Under the pieces are notes generated by a model that worked only from the letters and a program-made list of their open reading frames with translations, had not been told where the DNA came from and did no database searches. The position numbers and the translations under genes are program-made. From contig CM059193.1 of assembly GCA_030323885.1 (NCBI GenBank), positions 89,853,825-89,917,824 of the forward strand: a stretch of DNA of 64,000 bases, given 5' to 3'. Of this stretch, positions 15,202 to 54,989 are shown piece by piece. How positions within the stretch are numbered: the stretch's first letter is position 1; every line of letters starts with the position of its first letter. The stretch is from Branchipolynoe longqiensis (taxonomy: Eukaryota; Annelida; Polychaeta; Phyllodocida; Polynoidae).

Positions 15202-16374
15202 TCAAAAATCCGCCGAGGTGGAGGGGGGGGTCTGGCGCTCACGGGTTTGCTTCGTGATGCAGTCGGCCTCGCTGTGCATGGTGAAGACGCGCCTCACGTT
15301 GGCGCAATACGCGCAGACGTGACGGCGTCTGTCCCCCGCCTCGCTGTGGGCCTCCCCGAGGTGGGCCCGATCGCACGAGGCGGGGGTGCGGTTCCAGGCC
15401 GGGCAGGGCACCCCATGGATCTCTCTATCGTAGGTGGTGCGGGCGTCGGCCTGGGCTCGGGGGAAGTGCGCGCCTCGCTGGAGGTGGTCGAGTGGGCGGG
15501 CGGGGGCAGCGGTGGCATGGTCGTCGGGCATGGCGAGGCAGTCGAGTCTGTGGAGGTTGATGGCCACCAGGTCGTGCCACCCGTGGGGGAGGGTCCCGTC
15601 CGCGATGGCAGAGAACACACTCTCTGAGTATCGGCGGATGGTAGCCCACGGGTATATTAAGTTGTCCCGGCACACCCCGAGGAGGTGGTGGTGGAGTCCC
15701 TGGGCGGAGTGGGCGGGGAAGTCGGGGTGGTCGATGAGGTTGAGGAGGGCGAGCGTGTACTCGTCCTTTGTCGCCTCTCCTCGTTTGACCGGCTTTCTCT
15801 CTGCCCCTCGCTTCACAAGATCAGAAGGAAAGATGTAGTGTGCTGGTATCCCTTGCCGCCTGGTGGAGTGCCGCGCCTCGGCGGAGGCAAAAAGCTCCCG
15901 GACGGCGTCGGCCGCGGATGCGGGGCTGTGGCGGGTGAAGTCCTCCTGGTAGGCCGGGGACGTGGTAGATGGTGCTTGCGTGGAGAGGTGGCGGTACCTC
16001 TCGTACTCCGCCAGCGGTGCCCCGGGCAGGCTCGCGTGAGGCGGCGGCGGGGGCCGGGCTGCAGTGGTGGTGCGTGCCCGAGGCGCCGGGGCGGGTTCCT
16101 CCGGCACGAGGGCGTCGATCCGGGCGTGGAGGTCTGCCGTTGCCTGGCGGGCCTCGGCGGCGGCCTGGGCGGCGGCCTGTCGGTTCTCGAGCTGCATGCG
16201 CTGCATGGCCTCCAGCAGCATGGACACCTCGGAGCCCGAGGCGCGGTCCGAGGGGGCCGCGGGGGACGCCGGGGCTGAAGCCGGCGACTCCTCCCGGGGC
16301 GGTGTTGATGTAGGCCCCGGCATCCGGGGGGCAGCCCGGGAGCTCTTGCGTCCACGACCTTTCCCTCGGGGCAT
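15202..16374 (-). CDS. Gag-like protein with C-terminal Cys/His zinc-knuckle-like motif (390 aa)
   Basis: An intact ORF from ATG at 16374. The N-terminus is basic (MPRGKGRGRKSSR), followed by a Pro/Ala-rich region with an alanine-rich helix (about 45-90), a second Pro-rich linker, and a conserved globular part (about 145-290) with RRQGIPAHYIFPSDLV and GTLPHGWHDLVAINL. The C-terminal 60 residues contain CPAWN-x5-C-x16-H-V-C-A-Y-C-x10-H-S-E-A-D-C. This spacing resembles the gag zinc fingers of DIRS-like and related retroelements (C-x-x-[FW]-N...C...H-x-C-x-x-C). The same protein, clearly diverged but collinear, is encoded at 30765-31904, which argues for selection on the protein. Very GC-rich codon use sets it apart. 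The homology to gag is an inference from motif spacing. Confidence 0.78.
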   Translation of the reverse strand: MPRGKGRGRKSSRAAPRMPGPTSTPPREESPASAPASPAAPSDRASGSEVSMLLEAMQRMQLENRQAAAQAAAEARQATADLHARIDALVPEEPAPAPRARTTTAARPPPPPHASLPGAPLAEYERYRHLSTQAPSTTSPAYQEDFTRHSPASAADAVRELFASAEARHSTRRQGIPAHYIFPSDLVKRGAERKPVKRGEATKDEYTLALLNLIDHPDFPAHSAQGLHHHLLGVCRDNLIYPWATIRRYSESVFSAIADGTLPHGWHDLVAINLHRLDCLAMPDDHATAAPARPLDHLQRGAHFPRAQADARTTYDREIHGVPCPAWNRTPASCDRAHLGEAHSEAGDRRRHVCAYCANVRRVFTMHSEADCITKQTRERQTPPSTSADF

Positions 16375-16501
16375 GGTGCGTTCGTGTTTTGGGCGGCGGT
16401 CCGAGGTGGAAGCGGTCCGAGGTTGAAGTCCAAAGGAGGATGAAGGGCAGAGAGCTGGAAGGCGGCTGGAGGCTGAGTGCCTGAGGGAGGCCGGCCGGCG
16501 G

Positions 16502-16511
16502 CCTTATAAGG
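16502..16511 (-). promoter_or_regulatory. CCTTATAAGG TATA/CArG box of copy A
   Basis: A perfect CCTTATAAGG 128 bp upstream of the ATG at 16374. It sits between the leader repeats and a GGCCTCCCTCAGGCACTCAG block that is conserved in all three copies. It is a likely Pol II TATA element and also an SRF-type CArG sequence. Confidence 0.6.
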
Positions 16512-26705: not shown

Positions 26706-27296
26706 AGTTTCTATCATTTTACTCAGATAAATATATTAAATTAATTGTCATTAAAATACATTCCATGAAGTAACATTTATTTTAAATGGCTAACCTTTGA
26801 GATATTTGAAGTGCAAACATATCAAATTAATTTTGGCAAGCACACCAACACTCTGACACCATATGCTTCTGCAGTAACAACTTCCATTAAATTGAGTCAG
26901 TGTTCCCTTCTATGTGGCAACAAATACTTAATATGTGCATCAGTATTTAAGTTAGATATGTAGAATCAAATCTAGATAGTTATTTCATTTTTGAAAATTT
27001 AATGTTTCATCAGACTATGCAGCTCTAATTGAAATGATCCAACACAAACTATATATAACTTAAAAAAAATTAAAATATTGAAATGATAAACAAACTATAC
27101 AATAAAAAATAACTAGAATATGGAAATGATAATAAGTCCAACCATATGTATTTTGTACTTGAATAATAAATAATACATCACATAAAAATTATACTTGTTA
27201 TGGCTAACCCACTGACACACTAACCCCCTTCACAATATACTAATATGCCCTATCCAAGTACCCGCTGATCTACCTATTTACAATGTAATGTAAATG
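26706..27296. other. AT-rich sequence preceding a LINE-type 3' tail
   Basis: No gene is seen. It may include the 3' untranslated part of the truncated element that ends at 27355. Confidence 0.4.
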
Positions 27297-30369: not shown

Positions 30370-30628
30370 CCCTTCTATGCAGCAGGAAAGGCTTAATAAA
30401 TGCATCAGCATCCAAGGTGGATATGTACATCAAACCTATGACACTGTCTTGGATTGGTCGTAATGCGAAGCATTGCGCTTGATGCGAGGAGAGGAAGAGA
30501 CCCTCCCCCCACCTCCCCGGTCGTCGCGCAACATTCTCACCTCGCGCGACGCCCGCCTCTCAGCTTTCTTCCTCCCCCCTCCCCCCGCCTTGCTTTCGCA
30601 CCTCACCTGTCACCGCCCTCCTGCCCGC

Positions 30629-30638
30629 CCTTATAAGG
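30629..30638 (+). promoter_or_regulatory. CCTTATAAGG TATA/CArG box of copy C
   Basis: A perfect CCTTATAAGG 127 bp upstream of the ATG at 30765, nearly the same distance as in copy A (128 bp). A GGCCTCCCTCAGTCACTC block follows, so the box is a likely TATA element setting the transcript start. Confidence 0.6.
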
Positions 30639-30764
30639 CCGCCCGCTGGCCTCCCTCAGTCACTCGCCTTCCAGCCGTCCTCCACGCTCTGCCCTTTTTC
30701 TTGTCTGGCTCTTCACCACCGCTGCTTCACCTCGGACCGCTGCCCTGCCTCAGGCTCCTACACC

Positions 30765-31904
30765 ATGCCCGGACACGGAAAGGGAAGAGGCCGCAAGAGC
30801 TCCCGGGCGACTGCCCTGGCCACGCCGGGACCCTCCTCGGGCTCGCCCGGAGACACCTCAACACCTCCGGCCCCGGCCTTCCCCTCGGCGACCTTGGGCG
30901 CTGAGACAGCCCTGATACTCGAGGCCCTGCAGCACCTCGCCACGCGCATGGACGCCCTCGAGTTGGGGGGAGCCCGAGGAGCACCGGAACAACTGCAGGT
31001 GGCATACACCACGCCGCCCGCCCCAGCTCCTCGGGCGCGGGCCGCTGCCGGGGCCCGGCCCCCGCCACCACCTCAAGCGACTCTGCCCGGGGCAGCCCAC
31101 CCCCACTACCAACAGTACGACCGCCTCGCCGCCCGAGGCGGGCCCGCTCCACCCTCCGCCTACCTCCAGGACGTCGCCGAGGAGCACACCCCAGCATCCG
31201 CGGCCGACGCCGTCCGCGACATCCTCGCTTCCGCCGAGGCGCACCGCACCATCAGGCGCCAAGGCATTCCCTCGGGCTACATTTTCCCCTCGGACCTCGT
31301 GGAGAGGGGTCCCGAACGCAAGCCGGTGAGGAGGGGGGAGGCGACCAGGGACGAATACAACCTCGCCCTCCTCACCCTCGCCAGCCATCCAGCCTTCCCC
31401 GCGCACTCCGTCCAGGGCCTACACCACCACCACCTCACCGTGATGAGGGACATCCTGGTGCATCCGTGGCCTACCGTCCGCCGCTATTCCGAGGCCATCT
31501 TCACCTGGATAGCGGACGGGAGACTTCCCCACGGATGGCACGACCCGGTGGCCCTCAACATGCTGAGGATGGACTCCCTCACCACGCCCGCCGCCCCGGC
31601 AACACCAGCTCCCCGAGGCGAGGATTGGGCCCGAGGCGCACACCTGCCCCGGCCCCAAGTCGACACCCGCATCGCCTACGATAGGCACACTCACGGGGCC
31701 CCCTGCCCCGCCTGGAACCGCGAGCCCGCCTCGTGCGATCGGGCCCCCGTCGGGGAGGCCCACGGCGAGGTGGGAGACAGGCACCGGCACGTGTGCGCCT
31801 ATTGCGCCAACGTACGGCGCATACTAACCATGCACAGCGAGGCCGGATGCCTCACCAAGCAAGCCCGTGAGCGCCAGACCCCGGCCGCCTCGGCGGATTT
31901 TTGA
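30765..31904 (+). CDS. Gag-like protein with C-terminal Cys/His zinc-knuckle-like motif (379 aa)
   Basis: An intact ORF starting in good Kozak context (CACCATGC). The N-terminus is MPGHGKGRGRKSSR. A Pro/Ala-rich region and a helical stretch follow (about 45-80). The conserved core (about 135-280) has SAADAVRDILASAEA, RRQGIPSGYIFPSDLV and GRLPHGWHDPVALNM. The C-terminus carries CPAWN-x5-C, HVCAYC, then H-S-E-A-G-C. It aligns collinearly with the 390-aa protein at 15202-16374. The motif resembles the CCHC/CCCH-like finger of DIRS-type Gag proteins. The role is probably nucleic-acid binding and particle assembly (inference). No pol-like ORF follows: the downstream frames are proline-rich and not conserved as protein. 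Confidence 0.78.
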   Translation: MPGHGKGRGRKSSRATALATPGPSSGSPGDTSTPPAPAFPSATLGAETALILEALQHLATRMDALELGGARGAPEQLQVAYTTPPAPAPRARAAAGARPPPPPQATLPGAAHPHYQQYDRLAARGGPAPPSAYLQDVAEEHTPASAADAVRDILASAEAHRTIRRQGIPSGYIFPSDLVERGPERKPVRRGEATRDEYNLALLTLASHPAFPAHSVQGLHHHHLTVMRDILVHPWPTVRRYSEAIFTWIADGRLPHGWHDPVALNMLRMDSLTTPAAPATPAPRGEDWARGAHLPRPQVDTRIAYDRHTHGAPCPAWNREPASCDRAPVGEAHGEVGDRHRHVCAYCANVRRILTMHSEAGCLTKQARERQTPAASADF

Positions 31905-36239: not shown

Positions 36240-36985
36240 TTCCCAATTTTGGGTTGTCGACATAACACAACTGAGGTGGACACCAAAACGGATAGGGGAC
36301 TTCAACTTCAATTATTTTCATACATATGTACTCGGCGATGTTGGCGAGGTGAGACGTGCTCTAACGGTCGGGACAACAAAATACGGCAAATTAAGCATGA
36401 AATAGCTTCAAAACCACAGAAACGGCACCAAAACGGCAAATTAAATACACAAGGAATACTTTGAATACATCTGAGAGTGCCACCACATCACACTGACAAG
36501 TTAGTTCCAATAACTTGGTGCATTCACTGTCTTGCTGACTGTGGTTGTTGGGAACTTCACTTATTATCACTCACAACAACATTCAACAGTGTGTCAGTGG
36601 GCACACCAAAACTGAATGTACACCAGCAAGCTCAACAAAACGGCATGTACACCAAACAGCACATAAAGCAGACAGGGAGTACAGTGAGTGAGCTGATCAA
36701 CTGAGAGTATTACTGCATACACATACAAGTTGGTTCCAGTGGCTTGGTGCATTCACTGTCTTGCTGACTGTGTGGATATTATCACTCACAACAAAGTCAA
36801 AGGTACTGCAGTGGGCACACCAAAACGGAACGTACACCAACAAGCTCAGGGAGGCGGCGGGTGCACCAGGCAGCACACAGGGCAGACAGGGAATAAGGTG
36901 AGTGTGCTGTCCATCTGAGAGTGTCACTTGTGTTACACTTAAAGTGACTTGGTGCATTCGCTGTCTCACTATCAAATTGACCGAG
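36240..36985 (+). promoter_or_regulatory. LINE 5'UTR with tandem monomers
   Basis: Upstream of the ORF1-NADAR gene, a unit begins CTGAGAGT(G/A) at 36471, 36701 and 36915 (periods 230 and 214 bp). Each carries CTTGGTGCATTC(A/G)CTGTCT, and the first two also GTGGGCACACCAAAAC and CAGACAGGGA. The last monomer is truncated and leads into the ATG at 36986. Tandem 5'UTR monomers acting as promoters are known from rodent L1 elements; that role here is inferred. The left limit is uncertain. Confidence 0.65.
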
Positions 36986-38361
36986 ATGTCGCAACGCCAG
37001 ATGACCGATGTCCGGGGAAACCGGTCTGTGAGATCAACCAGGGTCAACCCTGTTGACCCTGCTCAGTCTCCCCCTGTCTTGAAACGACGCTCAACAAGCC
37101 CAACCACAGACACAAGAAGTGATGAGGCTGTCACACTGCAGGGGATCATGGCGAAGCTGAAACAGCTGGAAATGTCACCACTGGTCATCAACCGAATAGA
37201 TGGGTTGACGGACCAAGTAGCGGCCATGGAAACGAAAATGGATAAGATCTTGGCTGCAAACACAGAATGAGTAGACAGAATGACTGTCGAGCTGGCTGAC
37301 ACCCAAATCCGCCTTGACCAGGACCATCGGCACTTGTCAGCGGTTAAAGCTGAACTGCATGCAGTTAAATCAGATAATGTCAAACTCACAGCTCGAATGA
37401 ATGACATTGAGAATAGGGCAAGGCAGGCCAACATGCAAATTGAAGGAAAAGACGAGCAACACGGTGAGGATTTACGGAAATATGTAGTAGGACTGGCAGC
37501 GGATGTTGGTGTTGTAGACTTCAGGTCTGACCAGATTGAAAGTGTCACTCGGATTGGAAAACAGCAGACAGCGGCACACGGCAAATATCTCAGACCCCGC
37601 ACAATACTTGTGACATTTCGGTCAGCAGTGATGCGAAATGAGATATACTACCGGAGGGCCCAGCTAAAAGATCGGGCCGAGTATAAAGGCATTTACCTGA
37701 ATGACGACAGTACACCTGAGACCATGAGACTACGGGAAGACTACCGGTCAGTGGCTGCAGTGGCTCGTACAAAGGGACACAACATAAAAGTGCATGATGA
37801 TGGTATAGTGATCGACAACAAAAAGATACGACACTCAGAGCCACACCGACTCCCAGAGGGCTGTACACTCGCTGATGCCAAGACGATAAGTGTGAATGGT
37901 GAGATATATTTCCACTCCGAACATTCATATTTGTCTAACTTCTACCTGACACCAATCTTTGACAATGACTTGACGTACAGATCGGCACAACACATGTATC
38001 AAGCAGCAAAGTGTGATCTGGCAGGCAGACAAGACTTGCGCAATCAAGTTCTGGCAGTGTCATCTGCACTGGAAGCCAAACGTATTGGTGATCAGGCTGA
38101 GGAAAATGCAGAGTGGAGATCAAACAGGGAGAGGATACTGGCAGACATTGTTGAGTTAAAATTTGCACAAAACATGAGCCTACGGGGGAACTACTGGGAA
38201 CTGCTAAAGTCAAGTTAAATGAGGCAACCACTAACACATTCTATGGAATCGGCGCTACATTGAACAGCAGAGAAGTGCGCGACAGGACCTACAAGGGTCT
38301 AAACAAGTTGGGTCTGATACTCCAGGCAACGAGAGATAGACTGCAACAAAACAAAGCATAA
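36986..38361 (+). pseudogene. LINE ORF1 protein with C-terminal NADAR (YbiA-like) domain, broken
   Basis: Reads from ATG 36986 (MSQRQMTDVRGNRSVRSTR...). A coiled-coil region (about residues 55-150) is interrupted by an in-frame TGA at 37268-37270. An L1-ORF1-like RNA-binding part follows (VTRIGK, RPRTILVTF, KGIYLNDD). From 37901 the frame continues into a NADAR domain: HSEHSYLSNFY, Y-x-SAQHMYQAAK, LEAKRIGD, KFAQN-x-x-LR. It stops at 38216, but the adjacent frame (from about 38206) supplies the rest of the domain (LNEATTN-x-F-YGIG, G-L-N-K-L-G, then an arginine-containing helix) to TAA 38361, so a frameshift is present. In bacterial YbiA the motif is S-E-H; here the Glu, thought to be catalytic, is Gln (37988-37990). 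NADAR proteins act on ADP-ribose N-glycosidic bonds; a role for one in a LINE is inference. Confidence 0.85.
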
Positions 38362-39940
38362 ATTTTATACTGTATATCCAGGATACTGTATGTCGCATTT
38401 GATTGCTGAACATTGATGGCGATTGGTTCAGAAATTTCTTGTTACATTACCCCTCAAAGTGTTCGGTTGGGTTGGTTGCCTGGCGGACTGTCACTACATT
38501 AGCTGGCCCCATTGCCTCATTTGATGGAACTAGTCGTCCCTGGTGTCACTATTGAACATAAACACACTAAGGTAGATTTGGGTACCTGAGTGATTGCCAG
38601 CTAGTCAATAGGGACAGAGAGCTTGATGCATTACAGGCATACGTGGGGCAGGGACTATCATTAATGACAAGAGTCACACCAAACTGAAATACAGAGAGTG
38701 ACAGTTTCCAGGTTGACTGGCCTACTAAAATGCTTTTCCTGATCTAACCTTGCCTGCTAATTTTAACTGCATGGTATGTGGATGAATGTCTTCTGCTTTC
38801 TGTTTGCTTTTTCTTCCTTCCCGACTTTATACCATAGGTAACAACCCACAAGAATGAGAATAGTAGTCAAAGATGGCCCAAACCATAACATTCTCTGTAA
38901 AACCACAAATGCATGGCCATGAATATATGTCTACATATATTTCTGTGTCTGCATGTGTGTATATGTACATGTATTGGTAAAAATGCACTATTTTTGCAAT
39001 GATGATGAAAGCTTCAATTTGAGTATTTGTTGCAGTATTCAAATGTCCATGTTATCAATGAGAGATATTGATTGTAGATATCTGCTGAAAACTGTTTTGT
39101 TGTTGCTATGTTGTTTTTTCCAGTGGTGCGCATGGTTGTAGTTTTGTGAGTGTGACCATGGGGTTTCTGGACTGAACATAGGAATTGATAGGTATGTTCA
39201 CTGTGATGACTACGGACAGGATATTGCGGAGTGGTTTGACTGCCTGCCTCTCATCCTACAACGTATGGGACTTCATTTCTGGTCCCAACATGTGATCAAG
39301 GTGGGGTGTCAATTGCCATGGGTGAACATTACTGTCTACTGGGACATGCATCTGATGATAGTGCACCACGTGCTCAGTTGTACCTGCAAATCTTAGTCAA
39401 GGTGATGACTGAGCCAAATTTTCCTGAAATTATGAACAACTGGCCGGCCTGAGGCAGATAAAGAAATTTAACCATTGGACTGCGGCATACAGCTAGGTCG
39501 GTCCATAATTCACCTAGCGCGCATGATTGTACCATTGTACACTGGGCAGGATAGCCGTATTTAATGCTCGGTTTGAAACCACTGACTGCACTGACATTTG
39601 CAGAGCATTGGCACATGTTGAGACGTACTTGCAGGAATGTTGAAATATTGGTTCTCTCAAAAAGTACAATGTGGAATATTGATATTTTCTGATTGTTCCC
39701 TCACCCAATCATACAAGGTTATACTAACATGCTACCAACCAATAAGCTATCTGCTGAACATGCACTAACCTGATAAATAATCCACAAATATCTGTCCTGA
39801 CCAAAAAGAAGCACAATGTCTGACATCATGATCATGTCTATGACATTAGTCAACACAAACGGGGGCATATGTATTCCCCCCACTAACTTACACAACAAGG
39901 AGTCCAACCCACCTGAAACACTGGGTCATGAGCCCAGGGT
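38362..39940. other. Unassigned sequence between the two LINE parts
   Basis: No LINE ORF2 follows the ORF1-NADAR gene directly. At 39183-39460 two overlapping frames read like decayed coding sequence (YVHCDDYGQDIAEWFDCLP; then QLYLQILVKVMTEPNFPEIM ending at a stop), but I cannot name a family. The stretch 39816-39940 may be leader of the downstream LINE. Confidence 0.4.
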
Positions 39941-42859
39941 ATGGTGGGTGAGGTGGTGGGGGAGCGTGGGGATGGCAGGGACTGTGTGGAAGGCATTACA
40001 CTTCCTCTAGATGAAATCAAAAGCCAGGCTGGTTTAAAAATAGCACACCTTAATATTAGAAGCTTAATTAACAAAATTGACATGCTCAGAGTTGATCTGC
40101 CGTGGTCAAATATAGATATATTCACAGTATCTGAAACTTGGCTAACAAAAAGCACTGAAGATAAGCTCGCATCAATTAAAGGATACCAGTTAACAAGAGC
40201 AGATAGAACCACCAAACTACCCAATGGAAAGACTAAGATAGGAGGGGGCTTAGCAATATACTCTAAATCAAACATTGATGTGGATGATGAGACATTGAAG
40301 CACTTAAACCTATCTAATGCTACAATTGAAGCCCAGTGGGTTATAATTAAACGAGACAACTGTAAGCGCATTCTATTAGGGAATATATATAGGATGCCTA
40401 ATGGCAGCCTAGATACTGCATTAGACTTATTAACTAACTGTTTGGACCAGATACCAGACATAGACAAAATGGAGACACTGGTTATGGGAGATTTTAATGC
40501 AGATACAGCAGATCCAAGCACACAGACAGCTACAAAAGTTAGTCATTTTGCAGTTTCACAGGGATTGGAGCAGGTCATCAAATCTTGCACTAGAATAACC
40601 CGTAAAAGCAAAAAGATTCTAGACCTAGCCTTCACAGACATGAAATACTGTACTACTACAGGGGTAATTAACTATAATATAAGCGATCATAAACCAATCT
40701 ATGTTATCAAGAAACAACCTAGGGATGTTAGCGGTCTAATAGAGTTCTGGGGTAGAACTTACAGTCAATACTCTACTGATAAATACTGTGAAACTCTAAG
40801 GCAGGAACCAATTGAAAACTTTCTCCAAACAGAGGACCCTAATGCATGTTGGCGACTATTATTGGATAAAATAACGCTAGCAGCAAACGAGAATGCACCT
40901 ATGCGACTCTATAAGGTTAAAGAAAATCGTCCCAAAAGGTTATCTAATGAAATCTTAGAGCTACAGAAAGATAGGGATTACTTTGCGCAAAAATTTGAAC
41001 ATACTGGCAACCCTGAGGATGAATTCATAGCCAAACAACTAAAGAATAAAGCAACGGCAGCCTACAGAGGTGCAAGGGCCAAGTTTCTTAAAACAGGTAT
41101 CATTTTGAATAGAAATAACTCGAGGAAGGCATGGAGGGTAATTAATGATATAGCTCCAGCACCTGTACAGTCAGTGGGACATCTAACCGATGAATTAACT
41201 GGGGATAAAATACCTAGGGGAGAGTTAGCAACTTTCATAAATAACTACTTTGTCGACATTGGTGAAAAACTAGCAAATCAATCAGAGGATATACCACTAA
41301 ATGACAAAACATACCACCCCAAAGTTAATACTCATAAATTTGAACTGCACCCAGTCACAGAGCAAGAACTTATCAAGAAGGTGCAGTTACTCTCTGAATA
41401 CAAGTCATCAGGGCTAGAAGACCTAAGTTCCAGGCTCATCAAAGATGCCATGCTAGCACTGGCTACTGAATTCACATATCTAACCAATCTAATTATTGAT
41501 ACAGGTATCTACCCAGATGCATGGAAAAGGGCAATGATTATGCCAATCCCGAAAACGTCGAACCCTAAAACGTGTAATGAACTAAGACCTATATCACTTC
41601 TTCCAATACCAGGCAAAATAGTTGAGCAACTAATCCATGACCAAATAACAGAATTTTATGAAAGTACAAGTTACCTAGCAATAGAGCAAAATGGTTTCAG
41701 GAAGAACCACTCCACAACCAAAGCAGTGGCAGGTGTGCTAGACACACTAATGACAGGGATGGATCAAGGAAGATTATCTATTGCTGTCTTTATAGACTTT
41801 CGTAAAGCATTTGATGCTGTAGACCACCAACTTTTAATAGAAAAAGCGGCAAATAGTGGTCTGGGCACAGGGACAACTAAACTGCTAAAAAATTACCTAC
41901 TAAACCGTTCACAGTATACTAGACTTGAAGGTGTTAATTCCTCACTGAGAGAAGTGAAGACAGGGGTACTACAGGGATCTACCCTGGGCCCACTATTATT
42001 CTTAATCTACATCAATGACCTCCCACTAGTACTTGAAAAAGCAAAGGGAAGCATATTTGCTGATGATGTGGTACTGGTAGCTACAGATGTTGATGTGAAA
42101 GTAGCTGAATCCAAAATGAATCATGATTTAGAAAGAGTAAACCAGTGGAAAAGGGAAAATAAACTATCCATAAATATTATAAAAACTAAATATGTAATAT
42201 TTGCAACTAAAACTAAACGTTCCAGTTTACCAATTGTCAGTATAAAAATAGGAGAGTGTATACTTACGGAGGCTCTAAGTTATAAATATTTAGGTACTAC
42301 ACTTGACCCTACAATGTCAGGAACCAGTCAATTAAATAGAATTACCAGAACATTGGCAGCCAAAATGAACACCTTCCGGAAAATAAGGCATTATATGAGC
42401 GAAGAGACTGCACTTCTATTGTACAAAACCACAATACTGCCCATCATTGATTATAATGACATAATATATAATATACTAACTAAAAAGCAGCAAGCAAAGC
42501 TCCAAACTATTCAAAATAGAGGTTTGCGCACAGTATTTAAAGGAAAAACACTACATACCATTGAGATGCACAATAAAGCTAAACTAGATGCCCTAAATAT
42601 TCGCAGAGACAAGCACCTATTAGGCCTAATGTACCACCGCACGAAAGACCCATATTACATAGACACACCTACACAAGCCACACGTGCAGCACAAGCCACC
42701 CTCCTGAAAGTGCCGCATGTTAAAACTAGTAAAATGAAAAAGTCACCGGTTGTTCTGGGGGGAGCACTCTGGAACCAACTACCAGCACGTGTCAGGAACA
42801 GTGATTGTTACAAAACTTTCAAGATAAACCTCCATGCACATTTAAATCAACCAGCCTAG
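39941..42859 (+). CDS. Intact LINE ORF2: AP endonuclease plus reverse transcriptase (972 aa)
   Basis: A complete ORF without interruptions. The N-terminal endonuclease domain (about 33-255) shows HLNIRS (36-41), SETW (64-67), YRMPNGS near 150, GDFNAD (183-188) and SDH (248-250), the catalytic set of APE-type endonucleases. The reverse transcriptase (about 500-770) shows the conserved NGFRKNHSTT, FIDFRKAFDAVDH (617-629; first catalytic Asp is 619), GVLQGSTLGPLLF and FADD (706-709). A C-terminal region ends with LGGALWNQLPARVR, typical of the CR1/L2/Jockey group. The protein nicks target DNA and primes cDNA synthesis from its own RNA. Because it is intact it may be recently active. The start at 39941 is the first ATG before the endonuclease, but a downstream start is possible. 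It may or may not belong with the ORF1 at 36986. Confidence 0.93.
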   Translation: MVGEVVGERGDGRDCVEGITLPLDEIKSQAGLKIAHLNIRSLINKIDMLRVDLPWSNIDIFTVSETWLTKSTEDKLASIKGYQLTRADRTTKLPNGKTKIGGGLAIYSKSNIDVDDETLKHLNLSNATIEAQWVIIKRDNCKRILLGNIYRMPNGSLDTALDLLTNCLDQIPDIDKMETLVMGDFNADTADPSTQTATKVSHFAVSQGLEQVIKSCTRITRKSKKILDLAFTDMKYCTTTGVINYNISDHKPIYVIKKQPRDVSGLIEFWGRTYSQYSTDKYCETLRQEPIENFLQTEDPNACWRLLLDKITLAANENAPMRLYKVKENRPKRLSNEILELQKDRDYFAQKFEHTGNPEDEFIAKQLKNKATAAYRGARAKFLKTGIILNRNNSRKAWRVINDIAPAPVQSVGHLTDELTGDKIPRGELATFINNYFVDIGEKLANQSEDIPLNDKTYHPKVNTHKFELHPVTEQELIKKVQLLSEYKSSGLEDLSSRLIKDAMLALATEFTYLTNLIIDTGIYPDAWKRAMIMPIPKTSNPKTCNELRPISLLPIPGKIVEQLIHDQITEFYESTSYLAIEQNGFRKNHSTTKAVAGVLDTLMTGMDQGRLSIAVFIDFRKAFDAVDHQLLIEKAANSGLGTGTTKLLKNYLLNRSQYTRLEGVNSSLREVKTGVLQGSTLGPLLFLIYINDLPLVLEKAKGSIFADDVVLVATDVDVKVAESKMNHDLERVNQWKRENKLSINIIKTKYVIFATKTKRSSLPIVSIKIGECILTEALSYKYLGTTLDPTMSGTSQLNRITRTLAAKMNTFRKIRHYMSEETALLLYKTTILPIIDYNDIIYNILTKKQQAKLQTIQNRGLRTVFKGKTLHTIEMHNKAKLDALNIRRDKHLLGLMYHRTKDPYYIDTPTQATRAAQATLLKVPHVKTSKMKKSPVVLGGALWNQLPARVRNSDCYKTFKINLHAHLNQPA

Positions 42860-43437
42860 GCCAAAGCAGATCAATGATACACTGGGTCGGGGTTGCCGTT
42901 CGTTTCCCTGTCCCCCCGCTCCCCCACCCCCAAACAAACACTGTAAACCCAACCAGTAGGGGCCAACTAGACCAAAAACCCATCTACAATGGAATGAGCC
43001 TGGAAATGATTGTAGTTGGATCCTACTGAAGTACATGATTAATCAATATTAACGTACTTACTAACTCAATAGGCCCCACCTGAGATTACCATGAACGTAA
43101 GTTCAATCACAAAGGCCCACCCTACATCCCCCATCACCCTTTCAAAGAGTATGTTACTACTAGAAAGATAACCAGCTGTGCCCCACCCCCTACTAACGCC
43201 TACCATACTAGTCTAACTTAGCTACCTCCCCGCATGTGTTTCTATTTTTCTTATCTTGTTCTTTAACTATCATTCATGTATCGATGTTTTGCTTATTTTC
43301 CTGTAATTGTCTATTTGTATATTGTTGTAGATTTGTTTACTGTGTAGAGGCAATTGTGATTAGGGCTGGAAGACCAGTGCATTAGCACTGACAACATGTT
43401 ATTCAGAGGAATAAAAACACTTGAACAAAAAAAAAAA
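42860..43437 (+). mobile_element. 3'UTR and poly(A) end of the intact LINE
   Basis: Untranslated sequence after the ORF2 stop, ending with GGCTGGAAGACCAGTGC ATTA GCACTGACAACATG, ATTCAGAGGAATAAAAAC and an A12 tail at 43425-43437. A perfect 6-bp stem (43375-43380 with 43385-43390) is probably the site recognised by the reverse transcriptase. The same tail occurs at the end of several short elements in this window. Confidence 0.85.
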
Positions 43438-43477
43438 ATATATATCGTGCGTATCTATATACTGTGTTCCTTGTATC

Positions 43478-50048: not shown

Positions 50049-50190
50049 TAATATTTTTTTTTTTTTGGTAAATATTTGTATTCGTCTAAATACATATTTT
50101 TGTCAGCGCCGAGGCACTGGTCTTTCAGCCGTTGGAGCGATTTAAAGTCGAATCGAGAGCTTTCGCCGGCCACCATCTTGTTTTTTTCAC
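50049..50190 (-). mobile_element. Short element with LINE-type 3' tail
   Basis: On the minus strand: ACAAGATGGTGGCCGGCGAA AGCTCTCGATTCG, then CTGAAAGACCAGTGCCTCGG CGCTGAC, and an A-rich end (T11 on plus at 50055-50066). It joins a YY1-like 5' motif directly to the LINE tail, as an internally deleted LINE would. Confidence 0.6.
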
Positions 50191-54250: not shown

Positions 54251-54505
54251 GTGGTGTTCTCTGTGGCGGAGTGGCTAGAGTGTCTGATTTTTTTCTAGGT
54301 CGGATGCCTGATCTGAGGGTCGACGGTTCGATTCCCCGTGACCCCCCCCCCCCACCTCTACCAATTTGGATTTCCACCGCTGTGTATAACTTACAGTGTT
54401 ATCAAAGGCTGGTTGATCTCATACCATGTCTATGTGGTGTGGGAGGTTAAAAAATCCCATGGGTCGGTAAAATTGTAGGTCTGGGCTTTCTATCGACAAA
54501 CTGGC
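54251..54505 (+). mobile_element. tRNA-derived SINE family C
   Basis: GTGTTCTCTGTGGCGGAGTG GCTAGAGTG head, GACGGTTCGATTCCCCGTG B-box, then CAATTTGGATTTCCACCGCT and the same body as 50886-51225. The B-box is a perfect consensus. Confidence 0.82.
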
Positions 54506-54989
54506 CACAGCAGGAGCATCCACATGGCGGCCCTGGGAATCAGCTATCTGATTGCAAATCCTGCTACCATCATCCAACACCTCATCGAAAATCCACTGAG
54601 ATAACTGGTGGAAGTACACTATGAAGAAGAACTAGAACAGGGATTATTCAATGTTATATCTTAGGTTCATAGACATACACAGAGTGTAATAATGTGAAAG
54701 AGATGACATGATCCAAAGGACAACTATTTACATTACAAATACATTTGAATTCGTTTGACATGGCTATTATCAAGTTATAAGTTTGGAGAGAGTCAAGCAC
54801 TCTGCCTGGTCACACCAGACCTACGAGCAATTGATTTAAGACAGAATCTGTGGAGAAAGGAGCCGAGGGAGTTTGGTGGGGTTTGGGAAGATGGCGGTGG
54901 CAGTAGGGTTAGGTGTTTGAATGCAGTGGAAAGCGCTCTCCAGGTCGCTTCAACTTGAGTAATATGGAAGCATCTTATACATACAGCAA
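54506..54989. other. Unassigned sequence
   Basis: No gene. Contains a YY1-like GGAAGATGGCGGTGGCAG at about 54887. Confidence 0.45.

Follow-up and report, generated by a model that had tools for sequence, protein, structure and literature searches.

Does a LINE in the genome of the annelid Branchipolynoe longqiensis carry a NADAR (YbiA-like) domain inside its ORF1 protein and, if so, what would an enzyme fold of this kind do on a retrotransposon? The question arises from a stretch of 64,000 nucleotides (contig CM059193.1 of assembly GCA_030323885.1, positions 89,853,825 to 89,917,824, forward strand), hereafter referred to as the window, in which the initial annotation had read the end of a LINE ORF1 as running straight into a NADAR domain, with the motifs of the family in order. 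Searching the 315-residue frame at 37271-38218 with the NADAR profile PF08719 gives a significant match over residues 215-305 (window about 37913-38185; 45.5 bits, E 1.3e-11), above the curated cut-off of 35.1 bits; for comparison, the homologue P0001 scores 91.7 bits. The match ends at position 108 of the 163 profile positions. Near 38190 the frame shifts, and the last third of the domain continues in another frame to the stop codon at 38359-38361, so the passage from LINE ORF1 into NADAR stands as first described, whereas two of the listed motifs, YGIG and G-L-N-K-L-G, lie beyond the frameshift. ORF1 itself begins at an ATG at 36986, upstream of the region first noted. A profile built from 63 of 91 homologous ORF1-NADAR proteins (see below) matches the human L1 ORF1p structures 2ykp/2yko with an E-value of about 2e-7 over profile positions 93-265, which comprise the coiled coil, RRM and C-terminal domain (CTD) of a Type II ORF1; further toward the C-terminus, the same profile matches YbiA (2b3w, E 8.7e-21) and a eukaryotic NADAR (8bau, E 4.9e-19). 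The matches to PF08719 and to L1 ORF1p confirm that the fusion of a LINE ORF1 with a NADAR domain is real.

The fusion is part of a LINE of about 7.1 kb (about 36334-43438; Table 1) that is organized sequentially into ORF1, a spacer, an ORF2 encoding an endonuclease and a reverse transcriptase (RT), and a 3' end. ORF2 matches RVT_1 (E 3.8e-29), Exo_endo_phos_2 (E 5.3e-9) and Exo_endo_phos (E 1.6e-5), and, together with the poly(A) 3' end, this APE endonuclease-RT arrangement is that of an APE-type LINE. The 5' edge is well defined: similarity to the window ends at 36329-36337 in 10 of 14 subfamily loci (at 36350, 36486, 36818 and 36967 in the remaining four), and from this edge on GCGATGTTGG is common to the window and three other copies, the flanks before it being different. 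No clear target-site duplication is seen in the window and three further copies, one of which lacks the 3' motif in its fetched stretch. Within the 5' UTR, two diverged units (36468-36761 and 36698-36966) are about 72-75% alike by blastn at a distance of about 230 bp and are possibly promoter monomers; TRF detects no tandem array in the 5' UTR, and Rfam gives no match, for example to an HDV-like ribozyme, at the LINE 5' end. Measured from where the ORF1 match stops, ORF2 starts 1717 bp downstream in the window and 1705-1749 bp downstream in 10 other copies; in eight further copies, some of whose matches are partial, this gap ranges from 1579 to 3907 bp. ORF1-ORF2 spacers are long, about 1.6 kb in the window and roughly 2-3 kb in many of the loci L009-L028. 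The 3' end GGCTGGAAGACCAGTGC could form a 6-bp hairpin: in register, 93.9% of cells pair, against no more than 42.4% after sliding; compensatory changes are absent and there is no excess over shuffles, so covariation support for this hairpin was rejected. The window copy itself is decayed, its ORF1 being broken.

Table 1. Features of the ORF1-NADAR LINE in the window
Feature	Position	Strand	Remarks
5' UTR	36334..36985	+	sharp 5' boundary common to copies; holds diverged repeat
ORF1	36986..38361	+	broken here: in-frame TGA at 37268-37270, frameshift near 38190
ORF1 coiled coil, RRM and CTD (L1 ORF1p-like, "Type II" core)	37271..37900	+	profile match to 2ykp/2yko
NADAR domain	37913..38361	+	PF08719 match up to 38185; remainder in another frame
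Gln codon at conserved-Glu position	37988..37990	+	E88 of E. coli C7 NADAR; E43 of oomycete NADAR
ORF1-ORF2 spacer	38362..39931	+	similar length in subfamily copies
ORF2, APE-type endonuclease and RT, 975-aa open frame	39932..42859	+	Pfam
Conserved LINE 3' end GGCTGGAAGACCAGTGC and poly(A)	43364..43438	+	tail at 43364, poly(A) to 43438

Several other repeats share the window with this LINE. Its 3' tail recurs, with one or two mismatches, at 27296, 49837 and 59441 (+) and at 50114 (-), ending other repeats, which makes five sites including the LINE's own versus 0.01 expected; a second match to the window ORF2 was not found within the window, and the extra sites may belong to truncated copies or to SINEs that employ this 3' end as well. 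Separately, a CPEB3 (HDV-like) ribozyme matches at 54492-54565 (+) with 38.4 bits. All 59 scored CPEB3-type places in the genome, taken from 60,897 loose first-look candidates, lie above the cut-off, and the ribozyme's surroundings share about 79 bp between the window and each of three copies (91-92% identity) and 95-135 bp among those copies; this pattern suggests a short ribozyme-bearing repeat dispersed in the genome. Two ORFs in opposite orientation, 15202-16503 (-) and 30483-31904 (+), of 433 and 473 aa, are alike by eye and share a CAYCANVRR..TMHSEA motif; they perhaps encode a gag-like protein of another repeat family.

Beyond the window, the domain is abundant. All 150 places scored in the 1.85-Gb genome, drawn from 1798 first-look candidates, pass the PF08719 cut-off, and the 15 best places of the ORF1 search other than the window span the LINE-type and the NADAR part of the window's frame alike (residues 1 to 305 or 306). 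Three of the 150 (L001-L003) represent two host-type genes with no ORF1 match. These stand-alone genes lie at 868-1962 of L001 and 1432-2034 of L003, and one of them holds two tandem NADARs in a single 364-aa frame. Twenty loci of 10 kb were picked from the 150 places, mainly for long open frames: a LINE-type N-terminus adjoins the NADAR domain in all 20 (in a shifted frame in L009), and an ORF2 match follows downstream on the same strand in 19. One of them, L014, has both frames open (ORF1 of 483 aa and ORF2 of 998 aa) and shares 98.5% identity with L015 across 8.67 kb. Other copies of the fusion with intact frames and an attached RT, which the initial annotation had proposed to look for, thus do exist. 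Within the window's own subfamily, 12 of 15 loci could be read, the window among them (L034, L035 and L037 gave no usable frame), and the fusion is present in each of the 11 others; several have an unbroken 480-aa ORF1, and identity between copies reaches 99.67% over 3.35 kb, the 5' flanks lying outside the alignment. Near-identical copies together with unbroken ORF1 frames indicate that this LINE family has moved recently. When 35 of 54 ORF2 rows and 48 ORF1 rows (47 of 127 from the ORF1 search and one from the NADAR places) were paired, ORF1 lay upstream of 19 of the 35 ORF2 places and ORF2 downstream of 20 of the 48 ORF1 places; places with no partner are expected if many copies are truncated.

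The fusion is widespread among database proteins. When one intact ORF1 served as the query, 92 proteins were recovered: 91 carry the ORF1-NADAR fusion (32-86% identity, with 80-100% query coverage), and the remaining one, P0092, is a NADAR from a fungus. Three pairs of ORF1 and ORF2 matches lie on contigs of identical size (6596, 9926 and 5567), suggesting that the same element exists outside this assembly. Among viral contigs, the ORF1 profile found a single locus, where a NADAR stands alone on a phage-like contig, and relatives of a LINE-type NADAR occur in 360 phage records. A chance junction or an annotation artefact, to which the broken window copy taken alone would lend itself, can be dismissed with near certainty, since the LINE-type N-terminus is kept in all 20 loci, in the 11 other subfamily copies and in 91 database proteins.

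To which LINEs does the element belong, and has such a domain been seen in one before? The window ORF2 carries the RT motif QGSTLGPLLFLIYINDL where L1 has QGCPLSPLLF; this motif (QGSTLGPLLF) we take to be of CR1/L2/Jockey rather than L1/Tx1 type, and by the motif alone the RT looks CR1/L2/Jockey-like. The RT region scores 41 bits against L1 ORF2p and 52 bits against R2, and one named match of ORF2 is a "transposon X-element" of Exaiptasia at 30% identity. A NADAR domain in a LINE ORF1 is not wholly new: one sentence of a 2025 paper (PMC12477816) places a YbiA-family NADAR in ORF1 of Tx1 LINEs of Crassostrea gigas (Repbase) and suggests processing of the RNA intermediate, and the same paper mentions NADAR in Gypsy elements of Ectocarpus. 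Among the open-licence papers listed by the literature searches, no other was seen to report NADAR in transposable elements; further reports may exist. The oyster LINEs, known here by description, resemble the window LINE in ORF1 but bear the name Tx1 (L1-like), in contrast to its CR1/L2/Jockey-type motif; the two could share one ORF1 lineage. The Ectocarpus Gypsy elements are likewise retroelements with a captured NADAR, but they are LTR elements of a brown alga in which a different protein is involved. Among known ORF1 types, the Type II ORF1 described in PMC4120745 (L1 ORF1p, and also the CR1 and L2 clades) shares the coiled coil, RRM and CTD with the window ORF1 but is described there with no NADAR. 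In the passages of that Jockey-superfamily survey considered here, ORF1 types I-V are named with RRM, CCHC, CTD, PHD or esterase domains, and NADAR is not among them; the Type IV (esterase) ORF1 of CR1/L2 is similar in having captured an enzyme domain, the enzyme itself being unrelated (PMC4120745).

Where the domain came from was addressed with a tree of 114 NADAR rows, in which bacterial loci were sampled one in two and viral loci one in three. All 34 LINE rows cluster together (97/95); the three host rows (two genes, L001 and L003) fall outside this cluster in a group of their own (94/99). The LINE clade stands beside a small group that joins the host rows with three stand-alone proteins, weakly (85/23) and on long branches, in a tree whose bootstrap had not settled, which leaves out RNA-virus and most eukaryotic NADARs, and in which five long-branch rows (bac_L085, bac_L093, bac_L095, bac_L117 and vir_L164) behave as wrong-frame picks. 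The host's present NADAR genes, considered as a source of the captured domain, are at most a possible donor. By eye, the LINE NADAR motifs look closest to YbiA-type stand-alone proteins. Within the LINE clade, families of this genome are interspersed with database proteins, indicating that the fusion predates those families.

The window copy has Gln in place of the first catalytic Glu, from which it had been proposed that the enzyme may be altered or a pure binder. This proposal found no support. The Glu is present in all 92 database proteins (one of them fungal), all 20 other genome copies and all 11 subfamily copies besides the window, which was entered twice in the count (as win and as L029), and Gln is found, among the copies checked, in the window alone; Gln as a family trait was accordingly rejected. 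Once both entries of the window, P0092 and three rows failing a length filter are set aside, 119 LINE NADARs remain. In oomycete numbering, these retain E43 in all 119, K50 in 117, K75 in 118 and W89 in 119, and position 93 is Arg or Lys in 118. The Glu and Lys of the E-H-...-K motif are thus kept throughout the clade, as is E125 (118 of 119), the Glu of the last strand that characterizes the YbiA subfamily. Conservation of the first Glu is, in itself, weaker proof of catalysis than it appears.

A different picture emerges for the residues that contact the pyrophosphate and the adenine side of ADP-ribose (R79, Y84, D86, D130 and W133), which the LINE NADARs do not retain. With positions equated by alignment, R79, the pyrophosphate contact, is Asp or Glu in 115 of 119, D130 is Asn in 110, and W133 is Phe or Tyr in 118; in contrast, 75 bacterial, viral and stand-alone NADARs keep Arg or Lys at 79 in 65, D130 in 68 and W133 in 67. 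Five of these comparison rows show Arg at both E43 and K50 and are probably the wrong-frame picks seen in the tree. Y84 is absent from all 119 LINE NADARs and D86 is replaced by Thr, Ser or Asn in all of them, but neither position sets the clade apart because the comparison rows mostly lack them too (Y84 is missing in 69 of 75, and 63 of 75 have Arg at 86). The clade-wide change, read from the alignment, is thus in part of the phosphate pocket, with the catalytic residues kept. The DarT1-associated NADAR, the oomycete NADAR and E. coli YbiA (PMC11543638, PMC11125620; 8bau, 2b3w) belong to the same family by sequence and have both catalytic Glu residues and the Lys, but they differ from the LINE clade at the equivalents of Arg79, Asp130 and Trp133 and in lacking its fusion to an RNA-binding protein. 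Kept catalytic residues in a changed pocket argue for activity and against assuming the textbook substrate; the changes at R79, D130 and W133 suggest that the mode of ADP-ribose binding may differ from that of known NADARs.

Selection on ORF1 is uneven along its length. From 29 ORF1s that are intact or nearly so, 32 pairs with dS of 0.08-0.15 (pairs below 0.08 were left out of the medians) give a median dN/dS of 0.16 for NADAR versus 0.34 for the rest of ORF1, the pairs sharing copies and hence being non-independent. Single pairs range from 0.08 to 0.22 for NADAR and from 0.19 to 0.69 for the rest, and two pairs with dS of 0.15-0.3 give 0.10 and 0.20, respectively. Purifying selection within ORF1 is therefore strongest on the NADAR domain, which is not passive baggage of the protein.

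LINE ORF1 proteins bind element RNA. A NADAR tethered to an ORF1p that coats this RNA would act in cis on the ribonucleoprotein (RNP), where it could hydrolyse ADP-ribose-type adducts from bases of the element RNA or of newly made cDNA; hydrolysis would undo marks of host ADP-ribosyltransferases that otherwise block translation or reverse transcription, and the changed pyrophosphate pocket would point to a specialized form of the substrate. To this reading, in which the domain is an active N-glycosidase held on the RNP and removing such adducts from element RNA or cDNA, we give a probability of roughly 0.4. A protection of element RNA or cDNA from ADP-ribosylation, as first speculated, is plausible. 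More tentative is the fuller version, according to which the ORF1p of an old, diverse and recently active LINE lineage would have become a dedicated de-ADP-ribosylase of nucleic acids, or a related base-adduct glycosidase, that works in cis with a specialized active site (Arg to Asp/Glu), as a counter-defence against an as yet undescribed invertebrate host pathway ADP-ribosylating retroelement RNA or cDNA.

What is known of the family bears on these readings. NADARs remove ADP-ribose from guanosine in RNA, an activity seen in none of the macrodomain and ARH enzymes tested in that study (PMC11833690), and act on ADP-ribose in DNA as well (PMC11543638), guanine being the known substrate base. 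Positive-strand RNA viruses of invertebrates embed NADAR domains in their polyproteins, for which reversal of host ADP-ribosylation has been proposed (PMC9503650); they parallel the LINE as selfish RNA-using animal elements with a proposed counter-defence, but they are viruses and fall outside the tree made here. The nematode SNA-3 is, like the LINE ORF1, an animal NADAR protein tied to RNA: it has three NADAR domains and is needed for SL1 trans-splicing, and an active-site mutation impairs its function, but it is a host gene with no LINE part (PMC9303266). On the side of possible writers, clam CARP-1 ADP-ribosylates N2 of guanine in DNA (PMC11209040), and PARP1 overexpression did not inhibit human L1 (PMC4441479); no sign emerged of a LINE being restricted by ADP-ribosylation in the present host. 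NADARs are reported absent from vertebrates (PMC11543638). A Scabin/pierisin-like, guanine-specific ADP-ribosyltransferase, considered as a host writer, was not found in the host genome by a search that had no positive control. PARP domains are, to our knowledge, general in animals, so the 25 PARP-domain matches in the host genome, counted exon by exon, say little.

Of the readings that compete with an RNP-tethered de-ADP-ribosylase, the one that survives best, unlikely as we judge it, takes the domain for an active N-glycosidase directed at something other than ADP-ribosyl-guanine, that is, a differently modified base or a nucleoside that lacks the usual pyrophosphate arrangement. The pattern described above, in which both Glu residues, Lys50, Lys75 and Trp89 are kept while the equivalents of Arg79, Asp130 and Trp133 are changed clade-wide and retained in most of the 75 comparison rows, speaks for it; nothing in the element points to such a substrate, however, and the positions are equated by alignment. 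By analogy with a role proposed for phage NADARs (PMC9503650), the domain might instead degrade soluble immune signals or toxins derived from NAD or ADP-ribose rather than marks on nucleic acids. We consider this improbable, as the same authors prefer macromolecular targets for the animal RNA viruses (PMC9503650). Moreover, to reach a diffusible substrate the domain would not have to be joined to an RNA-binding protein.

PARPs act at DNA nicks, and a NADAR that only binds ADP-ribose marks, such as those at PARP-marked nicks or in host granules, could steer the RNP with no catalysis. Reader-like modules such as PHD do occur in other LINE ORF1s (PMC4120745), but a near-invariant catalytic Glu and Lys would be unusual for a pure binder and the Gln of the window is no family trait, which leaves this reading with little probability. 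Smaller still is the chance that NADAR merely adds an RNA-binding or multimerizing surface: accessory domains of ORF1 are varied and apparently exchanged between lineages (PMC4120745), yet here the active-site residues specifically are kept.

In this LINE protein the NADAR active site is conserved, and the domain is more strongly constrained than the RNA-binding part to which it is joined, which makes nucleic-acid ADP-ribosylation a possible ground of conflict between animals and the retrotransposons in their genomes. Little is known of NADAR roles in animals, SNA-3 being one example (PMC9303266), and intact natural ORF1-NADAR proteins are now on hand for a biochemical test. If true, an ORF1p that serves as a dedicated de-ADP-ribosylase would be a retrotransposon-encoded counter-defence, with an active site unlike those of the NADARs tested in the papers cited here.
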